The notes below the pieces were generated by a model. The model was not told the origin of the DNA. It searched no databases and worked only from the letters and a program-made list of their open reading frames with translations. A stretch of DNA of 57,695 nucleotides from Micavibrio sp. (GTDB taxonomy: Bacteria > Pseudomonadota > Alphaproteobacteria > Micavibrionales > Micavibrionaceae), in contig JAQGJB010000097.1 of NCBI GenBank assembly GCA_028290825.1, forward strand, positions 1 through 57,695. Direction: 5' to 3'. This document shows, piece by piece, positions 22,398-40,209 of the stretch (positions within the stretch are counted from its first letter, which is position 1; every line of letters begins with the position of its first letter). The position numbers and the translations under genes are program-made.

Positions 22398-22408
22398 CTT
22401 CACGCTGA

Positions 22409-23542: not shown

Positions 23543-23571
23543 ATTCTTGCCCCGGGGTTTCTTGTAGTTTT

Positions 23572-23610: not shown

Positions 23611-23652
23611 CAAGAAAACAGTTCGGATTTACGGAACTATTGGAGAATATTT

Positions 23653-24288
23653 ATGAATTACCTCGTTCTTATGAGACATGGCCAAAGTCAGTGGAATCTG
23701 GAAAACCGGTTTACGGGATTCAAGAATGTGGAACTGAGCGACCTGGGCCGTGAAGAGGCCCGCCTTGCAGGGCAGAACCTCGCAGCTGCGGGAATCGAAT
23801 TCGATCAGGCTTTCACCAGCACGCTGAAGCGCGCCGCCGATACTGCCGAAATTGCATTGAAAGAATGCGGGCAGGAACGCCTGATCCGCACGATGGAGCG
23901 CCAGGACGCCCTGCGTGAACGCGATTACGGCGACCTGACCGGCCTCAATAAGGACGAAACCAAAGAAAAGTTCGGTGAAGAACAGGTGCAGATCTGGCGC
24001 CGTTCCTACGATGTGCAACCGCCCGGCGGTGAAAGCCTTCAGGATGTGGTCGAAAAACGCGTACGCCCCTATTATAATGCGGAAATCAAACCACTGGTCG
24101 ATGACGGCGAAAACATCCTGATTGCGGCACATGGGAATTCCCTGCGCGGCATCCTCATCGTGATCGGGGTCGAAACACCCGAAACCATCAATCAGGCCGA
24201 AATTCCGACCGGTGCCCCACTGGTGTTCGAAATGGACAACGGCAGGGTGTTGAAGCGGTACTACCTGAACGAAAAGAAAGCCGCCTGA
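23653..24288 (+). CDS. gpmA: GpmA, 2,3-bisphosphoglycerate-dependent phosphoglycerate mutase
   Basis: Interconverts 3- and 2-phosphoglycerate in glycolysis and gluconeogenesis. The 211-residue product starts MNYLVLMRHGQSQWNLENRF, with the catalytic phospho-histidine in RHG. It also has ALRERDYGDLTGLNKDE, and the second active-site His in AAHGNSLRG. GGAG lies seven bases before the ATG. An in-frame ATG-less extension to 23599 is rejected because the family starts here. It is divergent from the RND operon. Confidence 0.95.
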   Translation: MNYLVLMRHGQSQWNLENRFTGFKNVELSDLGREEARLAGQNLAAAGIEFDQAFTSTLKRAADTAEIALKECGQERLIRTMERQDALRERDYGDLTGLNKDETKEKFGEEQVQIWRRSYDVQPPGGESLQDVVEKRVRPYYNAEIKPLVDDGENILIAAHGNSLRGILIVIGVETPETINQAEIPTGAPLVFEMDNGRVLKRYYLNEKKAA

Positions 24289-24312
24289 CAGGATTAAGCG
24301 TTTACATAATTG

Positions 24313-24341
24313 TTGACTTGCCAATTAGTTTCTGCTAATTT
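24313..24341 (+). promoter_or_regulatory. Promoter of the small gene at 24377
   Basis: TTGACT and TAATTT with a 17-base spacer. A dyad AATTAG (24323-24328) and CTAATT (24335-24340) lies within it and overlaps the -10, so it could be an operator. Confidence 0.6.
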
Positions 24342-24376
24342 ACATGCATAGGAATTCACCAGCCCCGGAGCAAGTC

Positions 24377-24703
24377 ATGTCCTTGTATAAAAACGTCTTT
24401 AATATCAGCAGTCAGTCAACGCAGAAAGAGGTTGCTGAGCAAGTGGCCAATTATGCGATGAACCGTAAGCTTCGCGAAGACGACCATGCGGTTGTTCGCT
24501 TGCTGGAACAATCAGATTACCGTTCGTTCCAGAACGCTCACCCCGATGACCTGCAGATTGCAGGATCGCAACAGGACCGCGCAGCCTTCGCCCTGATTGG
24601 AGTGGCGATGGATCATTTTAAAGCGGGCAGCACCGTACCGCAGCAAGATATCCGCAATCTTAAAGCCTATGCGAATGCCCCTAAGATTCAGGCATGGGGC
24701 TAA
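24377..24703 (+). CDS. Small unassigned helical protein
   Basis: Not recognised. The 108-residue product is soluble and probably all helical (STQKEVAEQVANYAMNRKL, DDHAVVRLLEQSD). There are no cysteines and no signal peptide. GGAG lies six bases before the ATG. It has its own promoter and terminator, so it is a one-gene unit. It sits in the segment that separates rpsO from pnp. Confidence 0.68.
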   Translation: MSLYKNVFNISSQSTQKEVAEQVANYAMNRKLREDDHAVVRLLEQSDYRSFQNAHPDDLQIAGSQQDRAAFALIGVAMDHFKAGSTVPQQDIRNLKAYANAPKIQAWG

Positions 24704-24722
24704 CCAATACGCGTATATCTTT

Positions 24723-24751
24723 AAAAACACAGGTTTTTGGCCTGTGTTTTT
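24723..24751. terminator. Terminator between convergent small genes
   Basis: An 11-bp perfect stem (AAAAACACAGG and its complement) with a TTTTTGG loop is followed by a T run. It ends the gene at 24377 and can also serve the minus-strand gene that stops at 24752. Confidence 0.9.
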
Positions 24752-24988
24752 TTATTGCGGGTGAGGGCGTGGCGAACGGAAAACGACTTTAACACGCTGG
24801 TAATTAAAAATCCCGGTATCGCCATCATCGGTATCCGTCTGCACGCAGCAGCCGAATATCTCTTTGACCTGATAATGTTTGCCCACAGTCAGCTTGTAAT
24901 GCGCCGAGCAGCAGCCTGTCGGCTTTTCAATCAGTTCAACAATGTCGCCCCGTTGCGGGCGAAGATCGCGAATGCCTGCTTCAAGCAT
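24752..24988 (-). CDS. Small unassigned protein with two CC pairs
   Basis: Not recognised. The 78-residue product looks like a small beta-barrel (RGDIVELIEKPTGCCSAHYK, KHYQVKEIFGCCVQTDTDD) with two Cys-Cys pairs and one His that might bind metal. AGGAGAG lies just before the ATG, a strong ribosome binding site. It follows the rpsO terminator on the same strand, so it may be transcribed by readthrough or from a promoter I cannot see. Confidence 0.65.
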   Translation of the reverse strand: MLEAGIRDLRPQRGDIVELIEKPTGCCSAHYKLTVGKHYQVKEIFGCCVQTDTDDGDTGIFNYQRVKVVFRSPRPHPQ

Positions 24989-25008
24989 GTTTCTCTCCTG
25001 TTTCTAAG

Positions 25009-25038
25009 AAAAAGGCAGCCATTGCGGGCTGCCTTTTT
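25009..25038 (-). terminator. Terminator of the rimP-rpsO operon
   Basis: A 12-bp stem (AAAAAGGCAGCC and its complement) with T runs on both strands lies about 23 bases after the rpsO stop. Confidence 0.9.
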
Positions 25039-25061
25039 TATATTCTGTTTTGCTGCTGCGA

Positions 25062-25331
25062 TTAGCGGCGAACGCCCAGTTTCTCGATCAGGGCTTTATA
25101 AGCGCCTTCATCTTTCGACTTAATGTAGTCGAGGAGTTTACGGCGCTTGGCAACCATGGTCAGCAGACCACGACGGCTGGACAAATCCTTTTTGTGTTCC
25201 TGCATGTGCAGGGACAGGGCATTGATGTTCTCGGTCAGCAGGGCAACCTGAACGAAGGACGAACCGGTGTCCTTGTCGGTGATTTTGTTTTCGCTGATCA
25301 GTTCTGCTTTACGCTTTACGGCTACGGCCAT
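25062..25331 (-). CDS. rpsO: Ribosomal protein S15
   Basis: Small-subunit protein that binds 16S rRNA early in assembly and also represses its own mRNA in E. coli. The 89-residue product has the usual length and the conserved [19 protein letters not shown] and [23 protein letters not shown] precedes the ATG. It is the last gene of the rimP-nusA-ylxR-infB-rbfA-truB-rpsO run and is ended by a terminator, whereas in most relatives pnp follows directly. Confidence 0.98.
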
Positions 25332-25352
25332 CTTATTTCTCCTTCAAGAGAG

Positions 25353-26252
25353 TTACAGGTTAAAGATCCGCACGGGGAAAACCTCGACGCCTTCGATCGT
25401 GACCAGGGCCACGGCTTTACCGTCATAAACGGCGAGGGCGTCACCTTCACCGAGTTTGCGCAAGCGCTCTACATCGGGTCGGGCTATGAAGGACAACTTC
25501 TGTCCCTGTTTTAACCTTGCGGCTTCTTGTGAATTCAGTTTCAGTGCCGGGATGCCGTCTAGCACTGTCTCCACAGGAAGGACGGCACTATGTCCAGTTT
25601 GTTCAAGCATTTCAAGGGAAATCGCCATATTCTGGTCCATAGGGCCGACTTTTTCCCGGCGCAAAGCCCCGATATACCCCACGGTCCCGAGGGCCAGCCC
25701 CATATCCCGGCCCAAAGACCGGATATAGGTGCCTTTTCCGCAGACGCAGCGGAAACTGGCCTGATCCGCCTCGCTCGACACCAGATCGAGGGATTCAATG
25801 AAAACCGGGCGGGGTTTCAAATCGACGTCTTCGCCCGACCTGGCAAGGTCATAGGCCCGTTCGCCGTCAATCTTAATCGCGGAAAACTGCGGTGGGGTTT
25901 GCAATATATCACCGGTAAAGTTTGGCAGGATAGCCCGGATCTCCTCCGCCGTCGGGCGGTTGGGGGATGTGGCGATGACGCCGCCCTCCAGATCGTCGGT
26001 TGAACGCTGTTCTCCCCAGTGGACAGTGAAGGTATAGGTCTTGATGTGATCGACGATAAAGGGAATGGTTTTGGTCGCTTCACCCATCGCAATGGGCAGG
26101 ATGCCGGTGGCCAGCGGATCAAGCGTGCCGCCATGGCCAATCTTCGCCGGATTGAGAATACGCCTGATCTTCCCGATCGCCTGGGTGGAGGTCAGCCCCG
26201 CCGGTTTATCGAGAGCAATCCAGCCATTGATGATGTCGCCTTTACGCTTCAT
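25353..26252 (-). CDS. truB: TruB, tRNA pseudouridine-55 synthase
   Basis: Makes pseudouridine 55 in the tRNA T-loop. The 299-residue product has the catalytic Asp in GGTLDPLATGIL, the substrate-binding segments HTV-like TYTFTVHWGEQRSTDDLEGG and TPPQFSAIKIDGERAYDLAR, and a carboxy-terminal PUA-like region. It lies between rbfA and rpsO, separated from rbfA by a 136-base gap filled by a large inverted repeat. Confidence 0.96.
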   Translation of the reverse strand: MKRKGDIINGWIALDKPAGLTSTQAIGKIRRILNPAKIGHGGTLDPLATGILPIAMGEATKTIPFIVDHIKTYTFTVHWGEQRSTDDLEGGVIATSPNRPTAEEIRAILPNFTGDILQTPPQFSAIKIDGERAYDLARSGEDVDLKPRPVFIESLDLVSSEADQASFRCVCGKGTYIRSLGRDMGLALGTVGYIGALRREKVGPMDQNMAISLEMLEQTGHSAVLPVETVLDGIPALKLNSQEAARLKQGQKLSFIARPDVERLRKLGEGDALAVYDGKAVALVTIEGVEVFPVRIFNL

Positions 26253-26274
26253 GTCTTTACTCGTTCAACTTGGT

Positions 26275-26374
26275 CGTCATCCCGGCGAAAGCCGGGACCC
26301 ATAGGATTGTTCCACTCGGATAGATTTGTCCTTTTATCACCATCGTAGGGGTCCCGGCTTTCGCCGGGATGACG
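26275..26374. repeat. 26-bp perfect inverted repeat between truB and rbfA
   Basis: The arms at 26275-26300 and 26349-26374 are perfect complements, separated by 48 bases. Each arm is itself a hairpin: TCCCGGC, a GAAA or TTTC loop, then GCCGGGA. This pattern (GTCATCCCGGCGAAAGCCGG) is a widely dispersed intergenic palindromic repeat in proteobacteria. It sits inside a translation operon and in mRNA would form either two hairpins or one long stem. Confidence 0.9.
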
Positions 26375-26388
26375 AATGGTGTGGAGGG

Positions 26389-26766
26389 TTAGTCGGCGTT
26401 AATCCCTTTGAGGATATTCTCAATCTTCTGCGCCTCGTCAAAACTGTCATCCTTCACGAACCGGACCTTCGGTGTCGTGCGCATTTTGACTTTCTTGCCG
26501 ATATCCTGCTGGAAGAACCAGGCGGCTTCGTTGAGGGCAGGGAGGATTTCGTCGAAATTGATCCCGCCGAGCGTCATCACATAGGCGGTGGCGTAGCGCA
26601 GGTCAGGACTGACCCGCACTTCCGTCACCGTCACGGTGCTCGACGATTCGAACAGCACAGGGTCATCGAAGCCACCGTTGCGCAGCGTCTCCGATAATAT
26701 GTGCCGGACTTCTTCGCCGACGCGCAGCATACGCTGCGATGGTGCTGGTTGGGCTTTACGCGGCAT
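26389..26766 (-). CDS. rbfA: RbfA, 30S ribosome-binding factor
   Basis: KH-fold protein that helps 16S rRNA 5'-end maturation. The 125-residue product shows RMLRVGEEVRHILSETL at the start, then TVTEVRVSPDLRYATAYVMT in the core and RTTPKVRFVKDDSFDEAQK near the end. It begins two bases after the infB stop, which implies translational coupling. Confidence 0.95.
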   Translation of the reverse strand: MPRKAQPAPSQRMLRVGEEVRHILSETLRNGGFDDPVLFESSSTVTVTEVRVSPDLRYATAYVMTLGGINFDEILPALNEAAWFFQQDIGKKVKMRTTPKVRFVKDDSFDEAQKIENILKGINAD

Positions 26767-26768
26767 AA

Positions 26769-29387
26769 TTACTCAACCGTTCTCGCTTCTGAAACAACAT
26801 CGAAGCATTCGATCTGATCGCCGGCTTTGATATCTTCGTAATGTTCGAAGGCCATACCGCATTCCATGCCCTTGCCGACTTCTTTGACTTCGTCCTTGAA
26901 GCGTTTGAGGGTTTTGAGTGTGCCTTCGTGGATGACAACAGAGTCGCGCAGCAGGCGGACTTTCGAACCGCGTTTGACGGTTCCGTCTGTAACCATACAG
27001 CCGCCGACCTTGCCGACTTTGGTGATGTTGAACACTTCGCGGATTTCCGCCTGACCCAGGTAAACTTCGCGCAGGTTTGGCGAGAGCATGCCGGAGAGGA
27101 GGAGTTTCGCATCATCGATGATGTTGTAGATGATGTTGTAGTAACGAACTTCCACGCCGTCACGTTCCGCCAGCTGACGCGCCTGAGCGTTGGCACGGAT
27201 GTTGAAGCCGATCAGCAGGGCATTGGATGCCTTGGCCAGAATAACATCGGATTCGGTAATCGCGCCGACACCGGAGTGCAGGATGCGGACTTCGACTTCC
27301 GGATTTTCCTCGCCGATTTTACGCAGGGAACCGATAATCGCTTCGGTCGAACCGCTGACGTCGGATTTCAGAATGACGGAAAGGGTTGTGCGTTTGGTTT
27401 CTTTCTCAACCGCCATAAGCTGTTCGAGGGTCGAGGTGCGGCGGGAGATGGAGCCGGCTGCCGCTTCACGCTTCTTGCGCTGACGGTAGGAGGCAATTTC
27501 ACGCGCTTTTGCATCGTCCTCAACCACGGTGAGGTTATCACCGGCGGATGGCGAGCCTTGCAGACCGAGAACCTCGACCGGGCGACCCGGTTCGGCGGTT
27601 TTGATCTGGTGACCCTTGTCATCGATGATCGCGCGGACGCGACCGGATTCAGCACCGGCAACAAAGATGTCACCGATTTTGAGCGTGCCCTTCTGGATCA
27701 GGACGGTCGCGACGTTACCGCGGCCCTGTTCCAGTTTGGCTTCGATGACCGTACCGAGGGCGGAACGGTTCGGGTTGGCTTTGAGGTCCAGAACTTCGGC
27801 CTGCAGGAGAATGGCTTCTTCCAGCTTGTCGAGGTTCAGTTTTTTCTTGGCCGACACTTCAACGATCTGCGTATCGCCGCCCATGGATTCGGGAACGATA
27901 TCGTGCTGAAGAAGATCCTGCGTCACTTTTTTCACGTTTGCATCGGGAAGGTCGATCTTGTTGATGGCAACAATGATCGGCACTTTGGCCGCTTTTGCGT
28001 GGGCAATCGCTTCGATCGTCTGTGGCATGATCGAGTCATTGGCGGCAACGACCAGGACCACGATATCCGTGACGTTGGCACCGCGCGCCCGCATTTCAGT
28101 AAAAGCGGCGTGACCCGGCGTATCGAGGAAGGTAATTTTCGCACCCGACGGCATTGTAACCTGATACGCGCCGATATGCTGGGTAATGCCACCGGCTTCA
28201 CCGGCAACAACATCGGTCGCGCGCAGGGCATCAAGCAGAGAGGTTTTACCATGGTCGACGTGACCCATGATGGTGACGACAGGCGGGCGGCGCATCAATT
28301 GCTCGCCGGTGTCTTCCGCACCTTCGATACCGATTTCAACATCACCTTCGGTGACGCGTTTGAAGGTGTGGCCGAATTCATGGATGATCAGTTCGGCGGT
28401 GTCCGCGTCGATGGTCTGGGTAATGGTGGCCATCACACCCATTTTCATCAATGCTTTCACGACATCAGGCGCACGTTCCGACATACGGTTCGCCAGATCG
28501 GCAACCGTGATGTATTCAGGCAGAACAACTTCACGCACCTGTTTGACGGCAGTTTCCTGCATCGCCATCCGGGCCTTTTCACGGGCGCGGCGGGCAGCGG
28601 CGAGGGAGCGGCCTTTTTCATGGCTGTAGAGTTTGTCTTCACCGGAAAGCGCGGTCTGCAATGTGATCTTGCCAGGCGTACGACGGTTGTCATCTTCCTT
28701 GCGGGTCGCAGGAGCTTTGACGCCGGTGTTTTTCTTCATCCGGGCGCGGTAGCTTTCTTCTTCTTCCGCATCGGCATCGAGCATTTTCGGTGCGGCGCGT
28801 GTGCCCGGCGGGCCGAATTTGTCGGCAGGGTTTGGCGGCGGGGCGAAGCGGTTTTCAATCTGCTTCTTGGCGCGTTGTTCTTCCTCCTCGATGCGTTGCA
28901 GTTCCGCGATTTCGCGGGCGCGCGCATCTTCGGCGGTATCCTGAACCGGTTCCGGTTTCTTGATGACCGGGGCGCCAAAGCCGTATTCCGGCGTGGCGAC
29001 TGGCTCTTCCGATTTGGCTTTTTTGGACTCTTCATCGGCCTGTTGCAGGGCGCGGATACGGGCTTCACGCTCTTCCGAGGTGAGCTTGCGCAGTTCGGCA
29101 CCCGGTGCGGTGATAATCGGCTTTTCTTCCGCTGTCTGCGGGCGGGCCATCGGCGCGGTGGTTGAACCTGTACGGCTGCGGCGAACCTCGACCGCAACGG
29201 TTTTACCGGAGCGTGAAGGTTGCGACATCACCGGCTTCGGTGCGGCAGGAGCAGGGGTTGCACCACCGCCAGCAGCAGGAGCCGCAGCAGTTGAACCCGC
29301 TGTCTTCAGGGTCAGCGTTTTCTTTGCACCAAGCGTCAATGGAGCCTTTTTGGTTTCGTCTTTTTTCTCAGTATCGGTCATTTTCAA
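26769..29387 (-). CDS. infB: Translation initiation factor IF-2
   Basis: GTPase that places initiator tRNA on the 30S subunit. The 872-residue product has a charged, partly disordered amino-terminal 290 residues rich in Glu, Lys, Pro and Ala. An IF2_N-like region follows ([20 protein letters not shown]). The G domain near 375-540 has G1 [10 protein letters not shown]3 DTPGHAAF and G4 NKIDLPDA, and the carboxy-terminal domains run to the end. Its start overlaps the ylxR stop by four bases. A 774-codon open frame on the opposite strand is a composition shadow. Confidence 0.97.
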
Positions 29388-30094
29388 TCTTCTTCGTTCT
29401 GGGTTTGATCGCGGAATAAGTTCATGCGTTTGACATGAACAAAAAACTTGGTGGCCGTACCGCCGCGCCCGAGGGCAGCGTGGTAAACTTTGTTTGCGCC
29501 GGACGCTTTTGAAAGCTCGTCGCTGGTGAAAAAATCGACGATGCGCGCATTGTTCGATTGCGCATGGAAAGACAGGGTCATGCGGGTGTCGGCATCTTTC
29601 GGTGACGCTGTCAGGTAAATCGAACCCTTGCCGGATTTCAGCATGCCTTCGGTTTTCTCGGCCCCTGTCAGCAATTGCCCGGCTTTCTTGGTCATGGACA
29701 GCATGGAGAGTGCCTGATGACGCAGGCCCGCTTCAATCTGGTCCATCATGTTCGGCGGAATGACGACATCCGCACCGAAAGGATTATCCTTCAGCGCGGC
29801 TTCCATCACAGGACGGTAGAGGTTGACGAAGAATTCCTTACCCGGAAGTTTCTCGGCGAAATCAGGGTATAGCGTATTTTCCGGTCCGATCACGAAACGG
29901 AGAACGCGGTCCTTCGCCAGTGCCTCGCCCGATTGGGCGCAGGTGAAGGTCGGGGCAGGTTTCGGTGGTTTTACGTAGGGTTTGTCGGTTGATTGATCTG
30001 GTGAAATCGAGGCAAGGGTCGGCTGTTCACGCCCGTTATCCACGGGCGTGTTTTCAGTTTGACCGTTGGGTGTTGGCTCCCCGATGGTGATCAA
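29384..30094 (-). CDS. ylxR: YlxR (DUF448) fused to an L7Ae-like domain
   Basis: Putative RNA-binding protein of the nusA-infB operon. The 236-residue product has a Pro-rich extension of about 50 residues, then the YlxR domain (about 50-105). From about 115 to 215 comes an L7Ae/RplGA-type domain ([20 protein letters not shown]). The fusion is usual in Alphaproteobacteria. The YlxR part is unusual: the basic CxxxR start is replaced by [20 protein letters not shown], and the GRGxY-type loop reads [12 protein letters not shown] binding by this half may be weakened. Confidence 0.85.
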
Positions 30095-30103
30095 TCAGCC
30101 TCC

Positions 30104-31648
30104 TCATGATGCCGCAGCAGGAGCCGAAGCCCCAGTGCTATCAGCTGTGCCGTTATCATTTTCATTTTCAAACCAGTGAGCGCGCGCTTCCATGATCATA
30201 GCGTTTGCTTCAGCCAATGACATTGCATTCGAACCCAGAATTTCAACCAGTTCATCACCGGCGAGGTCAGCGAGATCGTCTTTCGACTTCACACCGGCTT
30301 CGGCCAGTTTCAGGATCTGGTCAGGCTTCAGCCCGTCAAAGCTCATCAGGTCGTCCTGGATGCCCAGTTCCTGACGTTTCGATTCCAGCTCCGCTTTCTT
30401 CGCATCGATCCATGCTGTCGCACGGCTTTGCAGTTCGGCAGCAACGTCTTCATCGAAGCCTTCGATTTTCGCCAGTTCGGAAATTGGCGTTTCGATGATT
30501 TCTTCGATGGTAACAAAGCCTTCAGCAACCAGCAGGTGGGTGATGACTTCATCAATGTCGAGAGCTTCGGTGAACAGGGCCGAACGCTTCGCGAATTCTT
30601 CTGCGCGGCGGGCTTGTTCTTCGGCTTCGGTCAGAATGTCGATGTCCCAGCCGGTCAATTGCGCGGCAAGGCGGACGTTCTGGCCACGACGACCGATGGC
30701 GAGGGACAACTGGTCCTCAGGCACAACAACGTCGAGGCGGTGTTTCTCTTCATCCAGAACAACTTTGGAAACTTCTGCAGGCTGCAGGGAGTTCACAACG
30801 AAAGTCGCAAAATCTTCCGACCATGGCACGATATCAATTTTCTCTCCGCCCAGTTCGCCAACAACGGCCTGAACGCGGGAACCGCGCATACCGACGCAGG
30901 CACCGACCGGGTCGATGGAACCGTCACGGGACGCCACAGCAATTTTCGCGCGGGAACCCGGATCACGGGCAACGGCTTTGATTTCAATCTGGCCGTCGTA
31001 GATTTCAGGGACCTCCTGCATGAACAGCTTCGCCATGAATTCAGGCTTGGCGCGGGACAGGAAAATCTGCGGACCGCGAACTTCTTCACGGACGTCATAG
31101 ATCAGGGCGCGAACGCGGTCACCAACCTTGAGGTTTTCACGCGGCAGGGACTCATCGCGGCGGAGCAGGGCTTCAGCTTTGCCGCCGAGGTCGACGGTGG
31201 TGTTGCCGTATTCAACGCGTTTGATGATGCCGACGGTGATTTCGCCGATCTTGTCTTTGAACTCAATGAATTGTTTTGAACGCTCGGCGTCACGGACTTT
31301 CTGAACGATAACCTGTTTCGCGGTCTGTGCGGCGATACGGCCAAAGTCCAGCGGTGGCAGGGTATCAACCAGGAATTCACCAACGGCGACGTCCGGCTTG
31401 ATGCGTTTCGCTTCTTTCAGGGTCAGTTGGCGCGCTTCGCCTTCCGGATCAATCGCTTCAACGACTTCGCGGTAGCGTTTCAGTTCGATGATGCCCGATT
31501 TGCGGTCGATAATCGCGCGGATGTCATGGTCGAAACCGTATTTGGAGCGGCCGGCCTTCTGGATCGCTTCTTCCATGGCGGAGAGTACGATCTCTTTTTC
31601 AATATTCTTTTCGCGGGCGACGACGTCAGCGACTTGCAGCAGTTCCAT
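30104..31648 (-). CDS. nusA: NusA, transcription termination/antitermination factor
   Basis: RNA polymerase-binding factor that promotes pausing, intrinsic termination and antitermination. The 514-residue product has the amino-terminal RNAP-binding domain, an S1 domain (about 135-200) and two KH domains (about 205-345, with [20 protein letters not shown] and [15 protein letters not shown]). The long carboxy-terminal region from about 350 has two helix-hairpin-helix acidic repeats, as in Proteobacteria with the extended form. Its start overlaps the rimP end by 23 bases. Confidence 0.97.
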
Positions 31649-32219
31649 GGTCTTTAACCTCTTCTTCTACTTCGTTTTCGGCGGACTCAGCGTCCGGGTT
31701 TGCTTCTTGTTGTAACGCTTTAAACTTCTTCTGGGTGACATCGATCAGCTCTTTGCTCATCACCAGTTTGGCTTTCTCAATCCGGTCGAAGGGCAGTGCC
31801 ACTTCACCTTTATCCAGTTTGAGAACAACCGTATCTCCATTCTCGGTGCGGATAATGCGACCACGGAAACGTTTCTGCGTTTCAAGCGGCGGATCAATCT
31901 CCAGCTTCACGTCGAGACCTTTGTATTCTTCGTAGTGTTCGAACTTCATCAGCAGCCGGTCAATGCCCGGTGAACTGACTTCCAGACGGTATTCCCCGCT
32001 GATCGGGTCTTCCACGTCCAGAATGGCACCCACAGCGCGGGATACCTGTCTGCAATCTTCAACACCCAGAGATTTTGTCTTCGGGTTTTCCGCCATGATC
32101 TGGATGGTCAGGGCGCCGCCTTCACCGGATTGCTGAACGCAGTAGAGATTAAAACCCAGGCCGGTAACGGTGGGTTCAATCATCTTGGTAATACGTTCTT
32201 CCAGTGGCGTCAGCCGCAT
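31626..32219 (-). CDS. rimP: RimP, ribosome maturation factor
   Basis: Needed for 30S subunit maturation. The 197-residue product has the amino-terminal domain (PTVTGLGFNLYCVQQSGEGG, with EYRLEVSSPGIDRLL) and the SH3-like carboxy-terminal domain (KRFRGRIIRTENGDTVVLKL). An acidic tail of about 25 residues is longer than usual. It is the first gene of the operon, preceded by a promoter and a terminator-like hairpin in the leader. Confidence 0.95.
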   Translation of the reverse strand: MRLTPLEERITKMIEPTVTGLGFNLYCVQQSGEGGALTIQIMAENPKTKSLGVEDCRQVSRAVGAILDVEDPISGEYRLEVSSPGIDRLLMKFEHYEEYKGLDVKLEIDPPLETQKRFRGRIIRTENGDTVVLKLDKGEVALPFDRIEKAKLVMSKELIDVTQKKFKALQQEANPDAESAENEVEEEVKDHGTAASR

Positions 32220-32240
32220 TAACTTTTAGCCCTAAGTAAC

Positions 32241-32267
32241 AAAAAAGGCGGGCCGTTGAGCCCACCT
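32241..32267 (-). terminator. Terminator-like hairpin in the rimP leader (putative attenuator)
   Basis: On the minus strand AGGTGGGC, loop TCAACG, GCCCGCCT, then six T. This gives an 8-bp stem with one G-U pair, between the predicted promoter and the rimP ATG. It would stop transcription before the first gene unless bypassed, so it fits an attenuator. E. coli and related species also have terminators in the rimP-nusA leader. Confidence 0.7.
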
Positions 32268-32297
32268 ATCAAACATGATCAGGTTGTATTGAGGAGA

Positions 32298-32326
32298 TAT
32301 ATAGGGAGATTCCCACACATTTGCAA
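32298..32326 (-). promoter_or_regulatory. Promoter of the rimP-nusA-infB-rpsO operon
   Basis: TTGCAA (-35) and TATATA (-10), with an exact 17-base spacer, on the minus strand. The predicted leader is about 72 bases and contains the attenuator hairpin. Confidence 0.65.
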
Positions 32327-32349
32327 CCTTTATCGGTATTTTTTTGACA

Positions 32350-32377
32350 AACCCTAAATTCGCTGGAATTCAGGGTT
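32350..32377. repeat. 12-bp stem-loop downstream of the frameshifted gene
   Basis: AACCCTAAATTC, loop GCTG, GAATTCAGGGTT, perfect apart from one G-U type pair on the minus strand. It lies just after the inferred end of the minus-strand gene at 32388 but lacks a T run. It may still mark the end of that transcript. Confidence 0.55.
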
Positions 32378-32387
32378 CGGTTAATAT

Positions 32388-32761
32388 TTACAAACCAGGT
32401 TTGGGCAGATGGGCTGTTTGGTCGAAACGGATTCTGATCTCTGCATCAAGCTTGTCGAATGAGCAATAGGACGTTACGTGGGTAAAGCGGTCATAAAATT
32501 CAAGGTTTCTTGTTTTTGCGTTGACGAGAATATCGACCCGGCTTTCCGCAACATTTTCCGATTTTGCGGTAAAATCAGCCTTTGGCCCTCACTGAGCGTG
32601 TTGTAGGGCATCGCGGCAATACTGGCATGGCGCTCGCCCAGCCCGTCAAACCGTTGTGTGCCGGTTGGCTGGCCTGTGATGAAAAAGAGGCTGAGTTCGG
32701 GAACGTTATAGACAGTTTTTATGCGGCTGGTCATCGCGCCAGTGAAAGGGTCTTTCGCCAT
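32388..32761 (-). pseudogene. Unassigned gene with an internal frameshift
   Basis: Two overlapping frames together read as one protein. The first 59-60 codons (MAKDPFTGAMTSRIKTVYN to NTLSEG) start after a very strong AAGGAGAG site. The annotated frame then runs on to a stop at 32474. A second frame, entered near 32583, continues for about 63 codons without a stop (ADFTAKSENVAESRVDILV, ending AHLPKPGL) to 32388. Adding one base near the CAAAGG at about 32583 would join them into roughly 124 residues. This may be a disabled gene, a sequencing slip in the short A run, or frameshifting. The family is not recognised. Confidence 0.6.
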
Positions 32762-32913
32762 TTTGCTCTCCTTGTTGAATATCGCTTTGCTACCGTGTAG
32801 CCGGGTAAAGTGTTGATAAATTATGAAAAAACGGGATTTAAAAAATGCATTTTCATAAGCGAAAATATAGTGTATCTGTTACCGCAGAAAAATAATCATA
32901 AGGAGTGTGTAAA

Positions 32914-33480
32914 ATGTCTTTCTTATCACGGGCTTTCGAAAAAATGTTCTTGTCCCCTGAAAAACTGCAATTGAAGGCTGCTTTCCTGCAGGCTACCCAG
33001 GCTGTCCGCAGCCATGATACGCCAACCCTGAAGGCTGTGTTGGGCAACACAAAATTTGATCAGGATAAAAATCTGTCCTTGCTGGTCGGGGCGATCAGCA
33101 TCGATAATGTTGAGGGTTTCGAAACCATTCTCGACGGAACCGGAACATCTGTTAAAAACGTGCTGACCCTGCATAACTATCTTCCTCTGGCAACACAAAG
33201 CCTCGACACACCGATGCTTCCTTACGCCATAAGCCGCGGCAGCGAGAAGATTTCACGCTTCCTGGCCGGTCACCCGGATACCGATCCTGAGGCGCGCGCC
33301 TGCATGTCGTATTTCAACGCCTGTGTCTGCCCGTCAACAGGCACTGTTTATGCCCATTCCACAACGGTTCGCCTCCGTAAAGCCCAAAGCCTCGCTGAAA
33401 AGATGGGGATGCCAGGGGTAGCGGAGATCATCAGGGCGCGGACGGAAGCCGTAAAAATCCCGTTCGCCAGCCGTAATTAG
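32914..33480 (+). CDS. Unassigned protein, possibly ankyrin-like
   Basis: The 188-residue product has no clear family. Parts such as LLVGAISIDNVEGFETILDG resemble an ankyrin helix pair, but I cannot count repeats with confidence. It is soluble, without a signal peptide. AAGGAG lies eight bases before the ATG. A candidate promoter (TTGATA near 32813) and a perfect 12-base palindrome AAAATGCATTTT (32842-32853) are upstream. It belongs to the block that interrupts the usual trmB-rimP order. Confidence 0.65.
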   Translation: MSFLSRAFEKMFLSPEKLQLKAAFLQATQAVRSHDTPTLKAVLGNTKFDQDKNLSLLVGAISIDNVEGFETILDGTGTSVKNVLTLHNYLPLATQSLDTPMLPYAISRGSEKISRFLAGHPDTDPEARACMSYFNACVCPSTGTVYAHSTTVRLRKAQSLAEKMGMPGVAEIIRARTEAVKIPFASRN

Positions 33481-33508
33481 ATCATGTCCTTCTAATAGAA
33501 AACCAATT

Positions 33509-33543
33509 AAAGCATTGACATAATAATGGAAATGCTTTAATTT
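33509..33543 (+). promoter_or_regulatory. Promoter with a flanking dyad for the gene at 33568
   Basis: TTGACA (33515-33520) and TAATTT (33538-33543) with a 17-base spacer. An inverted repeat AAAGCATT (33509-33516) and AATGCTTT (33531-33538) overlaps both boxes, so a bound repressor would cover the promoter. Confidence 0.65.
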
Positions 33544-33567
33544 GGGGCTTGGGAAGAGAGAATTGAA

Positions 33568-34428
33568 ATGACACAGCGTCATAATCTTAAATCTCTGGAG
33601 GCCTTTAAAAAGGTCGAGCTGAATGGATCTGATATTTTAAGCCAGATCAGCCTGGATATCCGCGGTGAAAATAACAGACAGCCGCGCCCCTCTGATGTGC
33701 GGGTTCTCCTGCGCACGGCGGATCTACAGGGGCAGGAATATCAGTTTCCCAACCATGGTCATCCGGATAATGAGCTGAGCACTGTCGCCTTCAACGGTGA
33801 TAATGCCATCGTCATCATGCCTGCAGGCGATACCACGCGCCGCCAGCTTTTCTCCGCACAGCAGATTATTGACCGGCTGAAAAAAAGCGGGCTGGAACGT
33901 GCGACTCCTGATTTCATCGAGAAAGAAATCGTTCGCGGGGATCTCTCCAGAAAATTCGTTGCACAGGCTTATGGTCCGGCGCCCTTTGTGGCGCAGGCGG
34001 CACGTTTTGTGGATGTTGAGATTCCATCACCAAACGGTGGCACCGAAACCATTATTCCCGACATTACCCAGGATTATGCCGTGGGTATGCGCGCGCCGAC
34101 ACACGAGGAAGCTTTCCTGGTGATGTATTCCGGCAGCCCTAAAGACCTTTTCATGCGCGCCGGCAGTGCGGCAGCGCATTACCTGTCAACGATCGAAAAC
34201 GCGGTTCCCGCCACCCTTAGGGGAACATCGACAGTTGCAGAACATTTGGACGGAATAGGGCAGGTGACCAAGGGTATCGTTCTGTCCGTCGATGCGGCCA
34301 CAGGAGGCACCAAGCCGATCCGCCTTGAATCCGCAAAGGATATCTTCAATATCGAAAAATTGCCTGTCGTCATGGTAAATGACAACCAGCAGGTAATTGC
34401 GCAATACAAACCTGTATTCAAGCCATAA
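33568..34428 (+). CDS. Unassigned cytosolic protein
   Basis: Not recognised. The 286-residue product is soluble and probably mixed alpha/beta, with no cysteine and no signal peptide. Segments such as DYAVGMRAPTHEEAFLVMYS and KGIVLSVDAATGGTKPIRLE suggest a folded enzyme-like or binding domain, but I see no catalytic motif. It has its own strong promoter with an overlapping dyad. It overlaps the end of the convergent trmB by 11 bases. Confidence 0.7.
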   Translation: MTQRHNLKSLEAFKKVELNGSDILSQISLDIRGENNRQPRPSDVRVLLRTADLQGQEYQFPNHGHPDNELSTVAFNGDNAIVIMPAGDTTRRQLFSAQQIIDRLKKSGLERATPDFIEKEIVRGDLSRKFVAQAYGPAPFVAQAARFVDVEIPSPNGGTETIIPDITQDYAVGMRAPTHEEAFLVMYSGSPKDLFMRAGSAAAHYLSTIENAVPATLRGTSTVAEHLDGIGQVTKGIVLSVDAATGGTKPIRLESAKDIFNIEKLPVVMVNDNQQVIAQYKPVFKP

Positions 34429-35140
34429 GTCTGCCGACTTTTTCAAACACGAGGTAAGTCTGGCGTCTCCCCTTGGCGACGCCTTTCGATTCATAGCGCG
34501 TCGGAATCCAGCCCGGGGGCGGGGTTTGCCAGTCCTGCGGGCTGTTGGCCGTCATTCGTAAATCAGGATTATTAGCCGCATGTGTACACATCCATTCGGC
34601 AAGGTCGTCAATATCTGTGGTCATGATCAGTTGTCCGCCTGGCTTCAGCACGCGGACAAAGCGCTCGACATGTTCAGCCTGAACGATACGGCGTTTCCAA
34701 TGGCGTTTTTTCGGCCACGGATCGGGATTGAGAATGTAGATGCCGTCCAGTACATCATCGGCGAGAGCATTCACCACCGCCATTGCATCATCCATGTAGA
34801 CGCGGATATTGCTGTCATCCTGGTCGCGGATGGAGTTGAGCAGGGCGGCCATGCCATTGATAAAAGGTTCCGCACCGATAAAGGCTGTGTCGGGGTGAGC
34901 GAGCGCTTCGTTCTTCACATGCTCGCCATTACCAAAGCCGATCTCGAACCAGAATTTTTCAAAGGGTTTGCCAAAAACGTCCACCGCCTTGAGATTGCCC
35001 CGGTTCAGTAGCTCCTGCGGGATTTGCAGCCGCGCGAGAGCTTCATCGAATACAGATTGCTTCGATGCGCTGAGCGAGCGTGTCTGGCGTCGGCCAAATA
35101 ACTGGCGTGGTTCGGTTTCTTTACGGGTTTCAGGTTTCAT
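34418..35140 (-). CDS. trmB: TrmB, tRNA (guanine-N7-)-methyltransferase
   Basis: Methylates G46 in the tRNA variable loop using SAM. The 240-residue product has the SAM-binding motif FWFEIGFGNGEH and the TrmB signature YILNPDPWPKKRHWKRR. The carboxy-terminal TRYESKGVAKGRRQTYLVFE is also typical. It is downstream of metK, the SAM-producing enzyme, on the same strand; a terminator lies between them, so trmB may rely on partial readthrough. Confidence 0.95.
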   Translation of the reverse strand: MKPETRKETEPRQLFGRRQTRSLSASKQSVFDEALARLQIPQELLNRGNLKAVDVFGKPFEKFWFEIGFGNGEHVKNEALAHPDTAFIGAEPFINGMAALLNSIRDQDDSNIRVYMDDAMAVVNALADDVLDGIYILNPDPWPKKRHWKRRIVQAEHVERFVRVLKPGGQLIMTTDIDDLAEWMCTHAANNPDLRMTANSPQDWQTPPPGWIPTRYESKGVAKGRRQTYLVFEKVGRLMA

Positions 35141-35191
35141 GGCGGGGTTTTAACACTAGAAGAAGGAAAAGATCACGACTTTTCTGCTCAG

Positions 35192-35222
35192 GGAAAAGAA
35201 AACCCCCGCCGGAGCGGGGGTT
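35192..35222 (-). terminator. Terminator after metK
   Basis: A 9-bp stem (AACCCCCGC and its complement) with a four-base loop is followed on the minus strand by TTTTCTTTT. Confidence 0.85.
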
Positions 35223-35245
35223 AACGAATTTTCTGTTTTAAAAAA

Positions 35246-36472
35246 CTATCCGAGAATTTTTCGAAGCCCGTCGATCAGATCCGTCTTTTCCCAGCTGAAA
35301 CCGCCATCGGCTTCCGGCGCGCGGCCGAAATGCCCGTAGGCTGCCGTGCGGGCGTAGATCGGGCGGTTGAGTTTCAGGTGTTCGCGGATACCGCGCGGGC
35401 TGAGGTCGACAAGTTCATTGATGGCTTTGACGATCTGTGCTTCCTCGACGGTGCCGGTACCATGCGTGTTGACGTACAGGGAAAGCGGCTTGGAAACGCC
35501 GATAGCATACGATAACTGGATGGTGCAGCGTTCGGCATAACCGGCGGCGACAATGTTTTTCGCAAGGTAGCGGGTGACATAGGCCGCCGAACGGTCAACT
35601 TTGGTCGGGTCCTTGCCGGAAAATGCGCCGCCACCATGCGGGCAGGAGCCGCCATAGGTGTCGACAATAATCTTGCGTCCGGTCAGGCCGGAATCGCCAA
35701 CAGGACCGCCAATGACGAAGCGCCCGGTCGGATTCACATAGAACTCGGCCTCATCGCACATCCATCCGGCTGGCATCACTTTTTCCACGTAAGGGCGAAC
35801 CATCGCCTTTACATCGGCCTGCGACAGGCCTTCGGCATGCTGGGTTGACACAACGATGGAGGTCGCGCGGACAGGTTTGCCGTTGCGGTATTCCAGCGTA
35901 ACCTGCGACTTCGCATCAGGCTCCAGTTTCGCCAGCACGCCGGAATGGCGGGCCGCGGCCAGAGCCTCGAGAATTTTGTGGGAATAGTGAATAGCAGCCG
36001 GCATCAGTTCCGGCGTTTCATTACAGGCATAACCGAACATGATGCCCTGATCACCTGCGCCTTCTTCCTTGCTTCCCGCGGCATCAACGCCAACGGCGAT
36101 ATCAGCGGACTGGTTATGCAGTTTTACGTCAATATTGACGGTCTTGTAGCTGAAACCTTCCTGATCGTAGCCGATTTCCTTGATTTTATTTCGGACGACA
36201 TCGCGGATCATGTCGTGGGTAATCGTACCGTTGCAGCGCGTTTCACCGACGATAATAACCGTGTCTGTCGTCGCTACCGTTTCAATCGCGCAACGGGAAT
36301 AGGGATCAAGACCCATATGGAGGTCGACCAGCGCGTCGGAAATCTGATCGCAGACTTTATCCGGATGACCTTCCGAAACGGACTCACTGGTGAACAGGAA
36401 ATCCTTCAGTTCGGTGTGCGGTTGGGTGGCTGGGGTAATCTGGGTCATAATTTTCTCTGCTGTGGCTTGCAT
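35246..36472 (-). CDS. metK: MetK, S-adenosylmethionine synthetase
   Basis: Makes SAM from methionine and ATP. The 408-residue product has [19 protein letters not shown] near the start, the [12 protein letters not shown] signature near the middle, and [19 protein letters not shown], which carries catalytic residues. The chosen ATG (MQATAEK) follows GGAGG at ideal spacing; an ATG eight codons later is a weaker alternative. I do not recognise a SAM-II or SAM/SAH riboswitch in the leader. Confidence 0.96.
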
Positions 36473-36505
36473 GTCGGCCTCCGGTTTTAAATAAAACAAG
36501 AGGTC

Positions 36506-36533
36506 AGAATACAGCAGCAAAACCCAATATCAA
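36506..36533 (-). promoter_or_regulatory. Putative promoter of metK
   Basis: TTGATA and TATTCT with a 16-base spacer on the minus strand, giving a leader of about 28 bases. Confidence 0.5.
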
Positions 36534-36575
36534 GGGGCCGAACAGGAAAAGATACAGATTTTAGGGCGAAAGAGC

Positions 36576-37043
36576 CTAGCTCTGGCTTGCGACGAGAGCC
36601 TTGAGCATCTTGATGAAGTTCTTCCGAACCGCCTCGTCCTGAACCTGGTAATAGGTGCGGACCAGCTCAAGCGTCTCTTTGCGCTCCATCAGATCGCCCT
36701 CGGTCCCTTCGAGCCAGGTGAAATCTTCCTGTTTCGATTCAGAGAAGCCATAGGCCTGAGCAGGGTTCTTGACGTTATAACCCTCGAAGAAGAAATTAAT
36801 CCCCACATCCAGAATCTGGCTGAGGTGGAAAAGGCGGCTGGCGCTGACGCGGTTCGCGCCGCGCTCGTATTTCTGAACCTGCTGGAAGGTGATGCCCAGC
36901 ATTTCGGCCAGGCTGCTCTGGCTCATATTCATGAGACCGCGACGCAGTTTGACACGAGATCCAACGTGGACGTCGATAGGGTCCGGCGAGTCCGAACTGC
37001 CTTTGCCGTAGTAGCGGGGTTTTAAAACTGACTTGGTGACCAT
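36576..37043 (-). CDS. XRE-family helix-turn-helix regulator
   Basis: DNA-binding protein of 155 residues. The XRE-type domain (about 28-85) reads GSRVKLRRGLMNMSQSSLAE then GITFQQVQKYERGANRVS, which is a canonical helix-turn-helix. A helical carboxy-terminal part follows. This regulator sits between lnt and metK in many Alphaproteobacteria, so the position is conserved. The ATG giving MVTKSVLK is preferred over one 19 codons upstream. The target genes are unknown; metK is an obvious candidate. Confidence 0.9.
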   Translation of the reverse strand: MVTKSVLKPRYYGKGSSDSPDPIDVHVGSRVKLRRGLMNMSQSSLAEMLGITFQQVQKYERGANRVSASRLFHLSQILDVGINFFFEGYNVKNPAQAYGFSESKQEDFTWLEGTEGDLMERKETLELVRTYYQVQDEAVRKNFIKMLKALVASQS

Positions 37044-37174
37044 TGATCTAATTCCATTTTGGGATACCCGGATAAGCAGCAGCGCCCGTCCGGACGGCAT
37101 ATGTCTAGCAGAGGAATGCCATTGTGTGCAATATCAACGAATGGCTACCCCCAGGGACATACTATTTATACATT

Positions 37175-38716
37175 TTAATATGGTTTGCGTAAGGCAAATA
37201 TGAGGCCAAATAAGATCCCCATCCACAACAGAATGATATATCTGCCAAAAATGTTAAACCATGTTCCCGCCGCAGCCGCGGGCAGCGGAGAATCCGCGTA
37301 ACCGGCCACTCCGTACTCTATCCTTTTGGTTATACGTCCATAGGGATCGATTATGGCCGAAATCCCGGTATTTGCCGACCGGATCAAGGGAATTCCTTCC
37401 TCGACCGCCCTGAAAACCGCCATCGTCAGATGTTGATACGGGCCGGGTGAATTCCCGTACCATCCGTCATTCGTCACATTTATCATCCACGCGGGGCGGG
37501 GGGTATTGACGCTGACTTCACCCTGGAAAATTACTTCGTAACAGACCAGCCCGCTATAGGGCGGCAGAGTGGAGACAGACTGGGTGGCTATTCCCTTGCC
37601 GGGGGTAAATCCCGCAAAGCGCACAAACGGATGAAGCGGGATATGGTCTTTGAACGGGATATATTCGCCGAACGGTACAAGATGCGCCTTGTCGTAGCTG
37701 CTGACGGGCTGGAGGCGGTTATCGTAGGTTACAAGACTGTTGTAATAGGACGTTTTCCCATCGGCTGTATCCTCATGCCGCAATGTTCCGGCGATGATAA
37801 AATGGTTCGCTCCGTCATACATCAAGGCTTTCCGGATAAAATCGGAGACATTGGCATCCTGCATCACGTAATCGCTGACCGCCGTTTCCGGCCAGATGAT
37901 GGCATAGGTCTTCCCTGGAACGAACGGCGCGGCAGAAGCCTCGATCAGTTTACGCAGATTGGGGATCAGAAGATCGGGGTTCGCTTTATCCTGCTGCGGA
38001 ATATTCGGCTGGACCACACGCACGATCACATCGTTCCGTTCCTGCACCGGATGATCTTTAAGCCGCATCGCGCCCCAGCCATAAAGCGCAGCCATCGACA
38101 GAATGACAATCAACCCTGAAACCGCCCATTGCGCAGGCTTCGCCCTCTGCAGATAAAGCGCACCCGGAACGCACGCCCAGAGAGCGGTGAGGAACGTCAG
38201 CCCGTAAACGCCAAAGACCGAAGCCGATTGGACCATCGCAGGGCTATGCCCCCAGGCATAACCGTACAGATTCCACGGAAACCCGGTCAGAATATTCCCG
38301 CGCAGCCATTCCGATGCCATCAGGCAGAAAACGAACACGCAATACCCGCGCCAGGTTTTAAAATCGCCCCACCGTGTCGCGGCCAGCGCCGCAAGCCCGG
38401 TAAAGATCGCCAGACCAATCGGCAGGCCGACGATGGCCAGGGGCCACACCCATTTAAATTCGTTCCCGGGCACCAGGAGCGCATTGCCGATCCAGTAAAG
38501 CCCGATAAGGAAATAGCCAAACCCGAACAGCCAGCCGGAAAGAAAAGCCCGCCAGCCCTGAAGGGGCGAGAGCAGAACATAAAACGACGACAGGCAGACG
38601 AACAGCAACGGCCACAACGCCGTCGGCGGCGCAGACAAAGCCATGACCGCCCCGGACATTAAGGTCAGCAGGGCACGCACAACCGGGCGGGCGAAAAAAT
38701 TCCTGGCATTATTCAT
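37175..38716 (-). CDS. lnt: Lnt, apolipoprotein N-acyltransferase
   Basis: Inner-membrane enzyme that adds the third acyl chain to lipoproteins. The 513-residue product has about six membrane segments in the first 200 residues and one at the end (YIILLWMGILFGLIFAL). The periplasmic nitrilase-fold domain lies between. The Glu-Lys-Cys triad is visible in WPETAVSDY, YDKAHLVPFGEY and GLVCYEVIFQG. It follows corC with a gap of nine bases. Confidence 0.96.
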   Translation of the reverse strand: MNNARNFFARPVVRALLTLMSGAVMALSAPPTALWPLLFVCLSSFYVLLSPLQGWRAFLSGWLFGFGYFLIGLYWIGNALLVPGNEFKWVWPLAIVGLPIGLAIFTGLAALAATRWGDFKTWRGYCVFVFCLMASEWLRGNILTGFPWNLYGYAWGHSPAMVQSASVFGVYGLTFLTALWACVPGALYLQRAKPAQWAVSGLIVILSMAALYGWGAMRLKDHPVQERNDVIVRVVQPNIPQQDKANPDLLIPNLRKLIEASAAPFVPGKTYAIIWPETAVSDYVMQDANVSDFIRKALMYDGANHFIIAGTLRHEDTADGKTSYYNSLVTYDNRLQPVSSYDKAHLVPFGEYIPFKDHIPLHPFVRFAGFTPGKGIATQSVSTLPPYSGLVCYEVIFQGEVSVNTPRPAWMINVTNDGWYGNSPGPYQHLTMAVFRAVEEGIPLIRSANTGISAIIDPYGRITKRIEYGVAGYADSPLPAAAAGTWFNIFGRYIILLWMGILFGLIFALRKPY

Positions 38717-38725
38717 GCGCGGAGA

Positions 38726-39679
38726 TTACTCGGAGACAGGTTCTTTGGGAATATTTTTAATACGCAGACGATGTACCCGGCGCGGATCGGCGTCGAGAAC
38801 CTCGAAAACCAGCCCGGAATCATGGCTGACAACCTCACCCCGCGCCGGAACGTGGCCGGCAATGGCGAACACAAGCCCGCCGAGCGTGTCGATATCTTCG
38901 CGTTCTTCGTCAGTCATAAATGTGCCAAAGCGATTTTCGAAAGTTTCGATGTCCACCCGGCCATCGGCAAGGATCGTTCCGTCCGGCGTGATCAGCAATT
39001 GCGGCTGGTCGCTTACCTCGTGTTCGTCCTCGATCTCGCCCACAATGGCCTCGATGATATCGCCGACCGTGACAAGCCCGTCGATCCCGCCGAATTCATC
39101 GACGATAAGCGCAATGTGGCGGCGCGTCGTTTTCATTTCCAGCAGCAGGTCGAGAACATGCATTGCAGGTGAAACAATAGGAACATCCCGCACGATATTA
39201 TCAATGACAATCGGCTGGCCGCGTGCCAGGCAGGCAAGAATGTCTTTGATGTGCAGCGTACCGATCACATCATCCAGCGTTTCCTTGTAAACCGGGAAGC
39301 GGCTGAACTGGCGTTCGGAGAGCAGGGTGAACAGATCCTGTGTCGAGATGGAGCTGTCGATTGCCACGATATCCGCGCGCGGGATCATCACATCGACGGC
39401 GCGAAGGTCGCGCATCGCCAGAATGTTTTTAATCAGTGAGCGTTCATCGGCCGCCAGCGAGGCGTCGACGTTATCTTCGCTGACGAATTCTTTCAGCGTT
39501 TCGTGAAGGGAGTCTTCCTGCCTGTTGCCGCCAAGCATGTTCCTGACAAAATTGCGCAGGCGCGGTTCGCGGACAGGGGCCGGATCATCTTCGTGGACGA
39601 TATGGAGGGGCGGGCGCGTTGCGCCCTCAATACTTGAAGGCTCCGGGTCGGAGTCGATCTTATCGGTCATGTTCATCAT
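38726..39679 (-). CDS. corC: CorC/HlyC-family CBS-domain protein
   Basis: The 317-residue cytosolic protein has a CBS pair (about 85-210, with MIPRADIVAIDSSISTQDLF) and a CorC_HlyC transporter-associated domain near the end. It lacks the DUF21 membrane region, so it is the short CorC type, found next to ybeY and lnt and linked to magnesium and cobalt handling. Its start overlaps the ybeY stop by four bases. Confidence 0.9.
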   Translation of the reverse strand: MMNMTDKIDSDPEPSSIEGATRPPLHIVHEDDPAPVREPRLRNFVRNMLGGNRQEDSLHETLKEFVSEDNVDASLAADERSLIKNILAMRDLRAVDVMIPRADIVAIDSSISTQDLFTLLSERQFSRFPVYKETLDDVIGTLHIKDILACLARGQPIVIDNIVRDVPIVSPAMHVLDLLLEMKTTRRHIALIVDEFGGIDGLVTVGDIIEAIVGEIEDEHEVSDQPQLLITPDGTILADGRVDIETFENRFGTFMTDEEREDIDTLGGLVFAIAGHVPARGEVVSHDSGLVFEVLDADPRRVHRLRIKNIPKEPVSE

Positions 39680-40209
39680 CCATGCATTATGCCGTCATTT
39701 TCACGGATTTTATAGGGGTCTGTTATATCTAAACCCTTAAGTATTTGAATTTCAAGTGATTCCATCTCTTCCGCGTCGTTATCCTGGATATGATCGTAAC
39801 CCAAAAGGTGGAGAATTCCGTGAATCACCAAGTGGGTGAGGTGATGTTCGAAGGGTTTGTTTTCCTCAGCCGATTCCCGCGCCACGGTTTCATAGGCCAG
39901 AATCAGGTCGCCGAGGGCGCAGGGGCCGGGTGTGGTGGGCGCTTCCCAACCGTCCTCACCGTCAAGCTGTGCGAAGGACAGAACATTGGTCGGTTTATCG
40001 CGGTCGCGATATTCACGGTTCAGTTCCTGCACCAGCGCATCATGCGCCAGCACGATACTGATCTCCATCTCCACGCCGCCATCGATCAGTTTTTGCGCCA
40101 CAGGGCAGAGGGCAAGCGTCGCCTCGGCTGCAGTCTCGACAATGGCGCTGCAATCAGGGCAGGCATCATCCCACGCCGGTTCTAAAATCGAAATATCGAT
40201 TTCGGTCAT
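39676..40209 (-). CDS. ybeY: YbeY, rRNA maturation endoribonuclease
   Basis: Metal-dependent RNase involved in 16S rRNA 3' maturation and ribosome quality control. The 177-residue product has the metal-binding HGILHLLGYDH motif with three histidines, and a typical NREYRDRDKPTNVLSF segment. It overlaps both phoH (four bases) and corC (four bases), an unusually tight operon. Confidence 0.95.
   Translation of the reverse strand: MTEIDISILEPAWDDACPDCSAIVETAAEATLALCPVAQKLIDGGVEMEISIVLAHDALVQELNREYRDRDKPTNVLSFAQLDGEDGWEAPTTPGPCALGDLILAYETVARESAEENKPFEHHLTHLVIHGILHLLGYDHIQDNDAEEMESLEIQILKGLDITDPYKIRENDGIMHG

Follow-up and report, generated by a model that had tools for sequence, protein, structure and literature searches.

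It is already in print for other bacteria that NusA limits its own operon through termination in the leader, and a 2016 paper by Mondal et al. is reportedly the primary one on termination in the nusA leader of B. subtilis. The literature gives three cases. NusA-stimulated intrinsic termination in the leader of the B. subtilis nusA operon controls transcription into the gene (PMC12288461), the leader of the same operon in Streptococcus agalactiae terminates 31 nt from the start, with a NusA feedback proposed (PMC4448216), and the terminators t1 and t2 lie upstream of rimP in E. coli (PMC6511841). The rimP-leader was described in 2010 as the most ubiquitous attenuator, present in Firmicutes too (Naville and Gautheret, PMC2965389). 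The initial annotation of the present locus, which spoke of terminators known in gammaproteobacteria, was therefore right and too narrow. In the open-licence literature, no title or abstract among the matches listed concerned an alphaproteobacterial rimP leader.

Here, we analyzed a window of 57,695 nt from Micavibrio sp. (the whole stretch of DNA presented) together with the rimP leaders of related genomes. The 5' leader of its rimP-nusA-ylxR-infB operon very probably contains a premature intrinsic terminator, the alphaproteobacterial form of the rimP-leader, with NusA as the best candidate regulator. The analysis carries the proposal of a widespread feedback switch, acting on a core transcription-termination factor, over to a large sample of the class, with counts and controls.

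The rimP-nusA Operon and Its Leader

The features of the operon and its leader were as follows, in the order in which they are read.

32321..32326, minus strand, -35-like hexamer TTGCAA (sequence)
32298..32303, minus strand, -10-like hexamer TATATA, with a 17-nt spacer from the -35-like hexamer (sequence)
32290, minus strand, putative transcription start, an A that is the 8th base past the -10-like hexamer (predicted from the A at this place in order leaders)
32246..32267, minus strand, terminator hairpin AGGTGGGCT-caac-GGCCCGCCT with an internal U.G pair (sequence, terminator scan and fold)
32241..32246, minus strand, T6 tract, where a leader RNA of about 50 nt would be released (sequence)
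31626..32219, minus strand, rimP, the first gene of the operon (Pfam RimP_N and DUF150_C over the cut-off)
30104..31648, minus strand, nusA, overlapping the end of rimP (Pfam NusA_N, S1 and KH; TIGR01953 over the cut-off)
29384..30094, minus strand, ylxR-like gene (Pfam YlxR, 27.8 bits against a cut-off of 26.9)
26769..29387, minus strand, infB, an IF2-like ORF (ORF and translation)

The ORF at 26769..29387 is presumably infB, as judged by its sequence and place. The NCBIfam RimP models also match the rimP product (best E 7.1e-52), yet under that model's cut-off, and its identity to the RimP of sphingomonads was 36-43%. No tRNA gene was found in the window, and no RimP relatives were confirmed in viral contigs.

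The window hairpin is GC-rich, with 9 pairs of which 6 are G-C, and starts 30 nt past the promoter-like pair. A hairpin with six T ahead of rimP had been noted in the initial annotation and is present as described, except that its stem has 9 pairs and not 8 bp; 21 nt separate the T tract from the rimP ATG (32219), in agreement with the distance of about 22 bases given there. The fold of 32290-32241 was -17.7 kcal/mol compared to -9.4 ± 2.4 kcal/mol in 200 shuffles (z = -3.45), and z was -1.94 with the stretch to the ATG added and -1.14 with 39 nt more. In the terminator scan, the hairpin ranked 1st of 7 candidates in 31000-34000, where 3.8 were expected, and 4th of 31 in 20001-40000. On reading the sequence, no second hairpin was found between the promoter and the terminator of the window. 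The Rfam scan of the window gave no gathering-level match, to a riboswitch or any other element, and two weak Rfam matches in the leader (E 1 and 6.8) were far under gathering and were rejected as noise. A 12-bp CCC...GGG stem was also seen by eye at 32350-32377, just upstream of the -35-like hexamer; on the minus strand it is followed by an A-run and not by a T-run.

Comparison with Described Leaders

The leader was then set beside the general form of the rimP-leader (PMC2965389, Figure 2b). It occupies the same place before rimP-nusA-infB. The described form has a G-rich 5' arm and a C-rich 3' arm, GGGc...gCCC, and the window has GGTGGGC...GCCCGCC; the U-stretch after the stem corresponds to the T6 at 32246-32241, and the distance of 21 nt from hairpin to gene is within the described range of 4-130 nt. 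The general form has no antiterminator, and none is visible in the window type either. Moreover, the described motif is specific to rimP leaders, and the strict motif of the class was largely so too. The window-type stem also has a conserved U one base 5' of the GGG, which is part of a U.G pair in the order; this feature was compared with the written description of the rimP-leader. The leader attenuator of B. subtilis is known from experiment (PMC12288461), whereas the window leader is known from its anatomy, and the two were compared by description.

In E. coli K-12, the hairpin nearest rimP is GGGC-TTTA-GGCCC followed by T7, and it has the GGGc...gCCC signature in common with the window. E. 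coli also has a second CCCCG...CGGGG hairpin farther upstream and the metY tRNA gene in the leader, whereas the window has no tRNA gene and no second hairpin between promoter and terminator. Two hairpins, CCCC...GGGG and, closer to rimP, a GGGC...GCCC-like one, were present in 8 of 25 further loci of the phylum (the best-scoring 25 of 76 with rimP), an arrangement described for gammaproteobacteria in PMC2965389.

The Rfam family RF01770 (rimP, gathering threshold 47 bits) is named for the same gene and matches the E. coli control genome, but gave no match in the window or in its own genome. E. coli was the only one of 14 control genomes to be matched, so that RF01770 seems to model the longer gammaproteobacterial leader. 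The Rfam rimP model misses the alphaproteobacterial form.

The Promoter-Like Pair and the Spacing of the Hairpin

The pair TTGCAA-17-TATATA, called a good promoter in the initial annotation, is present, and the scores of its relatives were above those of shuffles; the word "good" was generous. With 8 of 12 consensus bases, the pair is under the promoter scan threshold of 9 and is absent from the scan list, so it is weak evidence taken alone. The mean best promoter score was 8.4 in the order (47 leaders) and 7.9 in the class (81 leaders) compared to 6.4 in shuffled sequence, which is the control for a scan that picks the top match in a range of 120 nt and so tends to yield one. The score was built to favor TTG and TA, which also bears on the TTG found in the best match of 44 of the 47 order leaders. 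The putative start at 32290 is based on the A at positions 7-9 past the -10, present in 28-31 of 40 order leaders.

In the 40 order leaders that scored at least 8 for the promoter, the hairpin core lay at a median of 30 nt from the -10, and 32 of them had it at 26-34 nt. The class median was 45 nt (48 of 81 leaders), and the order leaders looked shorter than the class leaders in this promoter-terminator interval. From the hairpin to the rimP start, the core-bearing order hairpins ranged from 12 to 212 nt, as measured to the first matched residue and not to a mapped start. The spacing of the hairpin is thus held to the promoter and not to the start codon, which argues for termination and against masking of the ribosome-binding site. 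An apparent second small hairpin was seen by eye in the promoter-terminator interval of several class leaders, such as L096, L101, L102, L118, L136, and L137.

Conservation of the Hairpin in the Order and the Class

Among 58 genomes of relatives, the window's own included, 54 had a RimP match, and these 54 leaders were read. Of 190 class genomes, 159 had a rimP match; the 110 leaders read from these were mostly the better-scoring ones and not a random sample. A GGUG-type hairpin with a U-run was present in 48 of the 54 order leaders, 47 by script and L023 by eye, where the script had picked a stronger unrelated hairpin. At a score of at least 20, a hairpin with a U-run was found in 81 of the 110 class leaders compared to 8 for the reverse strand and 1.2 per 110 for shuffled leaders; the corresponding numbers in the order were 36 of 54, 1, and 0.0. 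At the lax score of 14, the class gave 94 of 110 forward and 20 of 110 on the reverse strand, some of the 94 being another hairpin type. A hairpin with the G(U/C)G(G/A) core was present in 81 of the 110 class leaders, and three T columns were invariant across the 48 order hairpins. These results indicated that the hairpin of the rimP leader is not chance. The stem is conserved in close relatives, a point on which the initial annotation had staked its reading.

Six of the 54 order leaders were without a clean copy: four had none (L011, L056, L059, and L062), L029 had a stem without a U-run, and L054 had a stem with a mismatch. No hairpin was found at the lax score in 16 of the 110 class leaders. 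Among these, L146, L164, and L171 carry the motif farther upstream and L091 has an imperfect stem, which leaves 12. In one further case (G052:C228:7021-7054), the position is reversed, with a GGTGGGC...CCCGCC-T6 hairpin not upstream of the rimP match but about 380 nt downstream.

Specificity of the Motif to rimP Leaders

The class genomes were searched with a strict pattern (GTGGGC, 2-14 bases, GCCCRC, up to 4 bases, T5), which was present in 74 of 190 genomes with 87 distinct matches. At least 64 of the 87 lay 43-336 nt upstream of a RimP domain, on its strand and one per genome. The remainder comprised 3 antisense matches at the rimP place and 20 elsewhere (5 of the 20 in one genome), some of which may adjoin another rimP since the placement used 150 listed rimP places. 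The reversed-pattern control gave 15 raw matches in total. In the window's own genome, the rimP site was the one distinct strict match.

A looser pattern, GGTG...CGCC-T6, occurred in 51 of the 58 relatives' genomes and four times in the window's own genome, where by eye the rimP site alone had a GGGC...GCCC stem. Its Watson-Crick counterpart GGCG...CGCC-T6 had at least 14 matches in the window's own genome and was present in at least 57 of the 58 genomes, although these are not all hairpins. The near-specificity of the motif to rimP leaders, as judged from these searches, agrees with the statement published in PMC2965389. One class genome (G107) had five strict matches at three places away from the listed rimP, two of which matched on both strands; this is possibly a repeat.

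The loci of Sphingobium, Novosphingobium and similar genomes (L032-L041, one of them a MAG named Proteobacteria bacterium) were excluded from the order counts. None of the 10 had the hairpin within 330 nt, and L040 had an unrelated one, so the element is dispensable in some of the class. In the five of these genomes that were searched, the strict pattern gave one match, at a position beyond the end of the rimP-bearing contig. With no strict match at rimP in these five sphingomonad-type genomes, the switch seems to be lost or replaced there. These data suggest a loss of the hairpin in the Sphingobium/Novosphingobium group.

Pairing of the Stem and the U of the 5' Arm

The pairing was evaluated on 48 aligned order hairpins (43 distinct) over seven pairs; rows L009 and L042 of this alignment are misaligned in the inner stem. 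Double-sided changes were found in 12 cells compared to 2.1 in shuffles, and the covariation score was 0.149 compared to 0.091, with 0 of 500 shuffles as high in either case. The number of pairs changed on both sides (3 of seven compared to 1.6 in shuffles, 70 of 500) was not above shuffles, and the number of pair types (6 compared to 6.6) showed no excess. The covarying stem pairs that the initial annotation had looked to in aligned rimP leaders were thus borne out by the double-changed cells and the covariation score, while the other two measures stayed at the shuffle level. The paired cells amounted to 97.3% compared to 34-57% with the arms slid, a percentage that is favored because the hairpins were picked for pairing; the comparison of forward strand, reverse strand, and shuffles is the fairer evidence.

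The third pair behaved differently from the inner pairs, which change on both sides. In the order it was U.G in 42 of the 43 distinct sequences, the one exception being U-A. Across the class, a U preceded the GGG in 67 of the 81 GGG-bearing leaders, with A (38) or G (29) as the partner. The other 14 had C-G (6), G-C (4), A-U (3), and G-U (1), some of which are register artefacts, and the clear exceptions were mostly C-G. The order row of the same count gave 35 U.G and 1 U-A of 39, with L016, L023, and L045 as register artefacts. A C-G pair at this position is more stable (-17.3 compared to -15.4 kcal/mol), and it is rare there (6 of 81). The U of the 5' arm therefore seems to be kept more strictly than stability alone asks.

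A plain terminator could use the stabler C-G pair, yet this pair is rare, which led us to the tentative idea that the 5' arm GUGGG might be a sequence read by a protein while it emerges, the likeliest reader being the S1/KH region of NusA or the polymerase. We consider this possible, with the odds against it. If it were true, the leader would hold a built-in NusA operator and the feedback would be specific to this one terminator. The kept U with its shifting partner is the detail most worth the attention of specialists, and it offers a testable base for asking what reads the conserved stem.

Proposed Mechanism and Alternative Explanations

The hairpin is present, is conserved, and is linked to a promoter-like pair and to rimP. 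On this basis we infer the start site, the termination itself, and the setting of its efficiency by NusA. RNA polymerase would start near 32290, transcribe about 22 nt, and then make the GGUGGGC...GCCCGCC hairpin and the U6. A part of the polymerases would release a leader RNA of about 50 nt, and the rest would read through into rimP, nusA, and infB. The read-through fraction would most likely be set by a trans-acting termination factor, for which NusA is the best candidate; more NusA would lead to more termination and less nusA.

That the rimP-nusA operon has a conserved premature terminator, the equivalent of those known elsewhere, is well supported by the conservation of the hairpin, the compensating changes of the stem, the near-specificity to rimP leaders, and the held promoter distance. 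The same evidence supports the earlier proposal of an attenuator-type terminator before rimP as the alphaproteobacterial equivalent. As for its regulation, antiterminators were searched by comparing the duplex energy of the 5' segment and the 5' arm with that of dinucleotide shuffles. The mean z was 0.13 in 47 order leaders and 0.02 in 81 class leaders, with no pairing beyond chance. Since no antiterminator is visible, a trans-acting termination factor probably sets the read-through ratio, and by analogy an autoregulatory loop of NusA is plausible. The strong stem could also terminate nearly fully, with another promoter bypassing it.

Attenuation could be under a control other than NusA, such as NusG, RimP, a ribosomal protein, or growth-rate or nucleotide effects on the bare terminator, and we regard this as rather unlikely. 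Nothing in the sequence data singles out NusA, RimP was also mentioned by Naville and Gautheret (PMC2965389), and NusG and NusA are reported to act together on most B. subtilis intrinsic terminators. However, autoregulation of NusA through its own leader is the mechanism given for B. subtilis in PMC12288461, and PMC6511841 and PMC4448216 state that NusA feeds back on the operon in E. coli.

The hairpin as a constitutive terminator, shielding the operon from read-through of the upstream trmB/metK and not acting as an attenuator, is improbable. Among 17 relatives with a trmB match, trmB was co-directional and at most 300 nt upstream of rimP in 13, where upstream transcripts would meet the terminator; two of the remaining trmB were at about 600 nt and two on other contigs. 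However, transcripts of the operon itself must pass the hairpin, since the promoter-like pair precedes it at a held distance. In the window, two plus-strand ORFs (32905-33480 and 33568-34428, with no Pfam or NCBIfam match) part trmB from the rimP leader, yet the promoter and the hairpin are kept; as trmB adjoins the leader in 13 of the 17 relatives, these two ORFs look like an insertion. The argument against a shield is incomplete, since a minus-strand ORF at 32474-32761 remains upstream. This ORF of 95 aa has AAGGAG just before its ATG by eye and no family match, and it is the only co-directional ORF of such size that ends close upstream of the promoter.

A main role of the terminated leader as a trans-acting small RNA is very improbable. 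The anatomy does predict a short RNA of about 50 nt with a strong terminator, but the 5' segment has little that stands out beyond an A-rich start and the CCC of 18 of 40 leaders, and the conserved part is the terminator itself. Attenuation by a leader peptide is hardly credible and was rejected: an ORF of 14 codons does run from the ATG at 32276 through the hairpin to the TAG at 32232, and the position of its ATG recurs in the two closest relatives (L003 and L004), but its length is 14, 28, and 6 codons in the window and these two, no ribosome-binding site was seen for it by eye, and a 5'-segment ATG occurs in 10 of the 47 order leaders, with a frame that continues through the stem in 7, and in 31 of the 81 class leaders, with such a frame in 24, so that the peptide is not conserved across the leaders of the order and the class.

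The CCC lies 7-24 nt past the -10, near the putative 5' end of the RNA. Its count in the order compares to 2.2 in mononucleotide shuffles, and in the class it was present in 13 of 48 leaders compared to 5.7 in shuffles.
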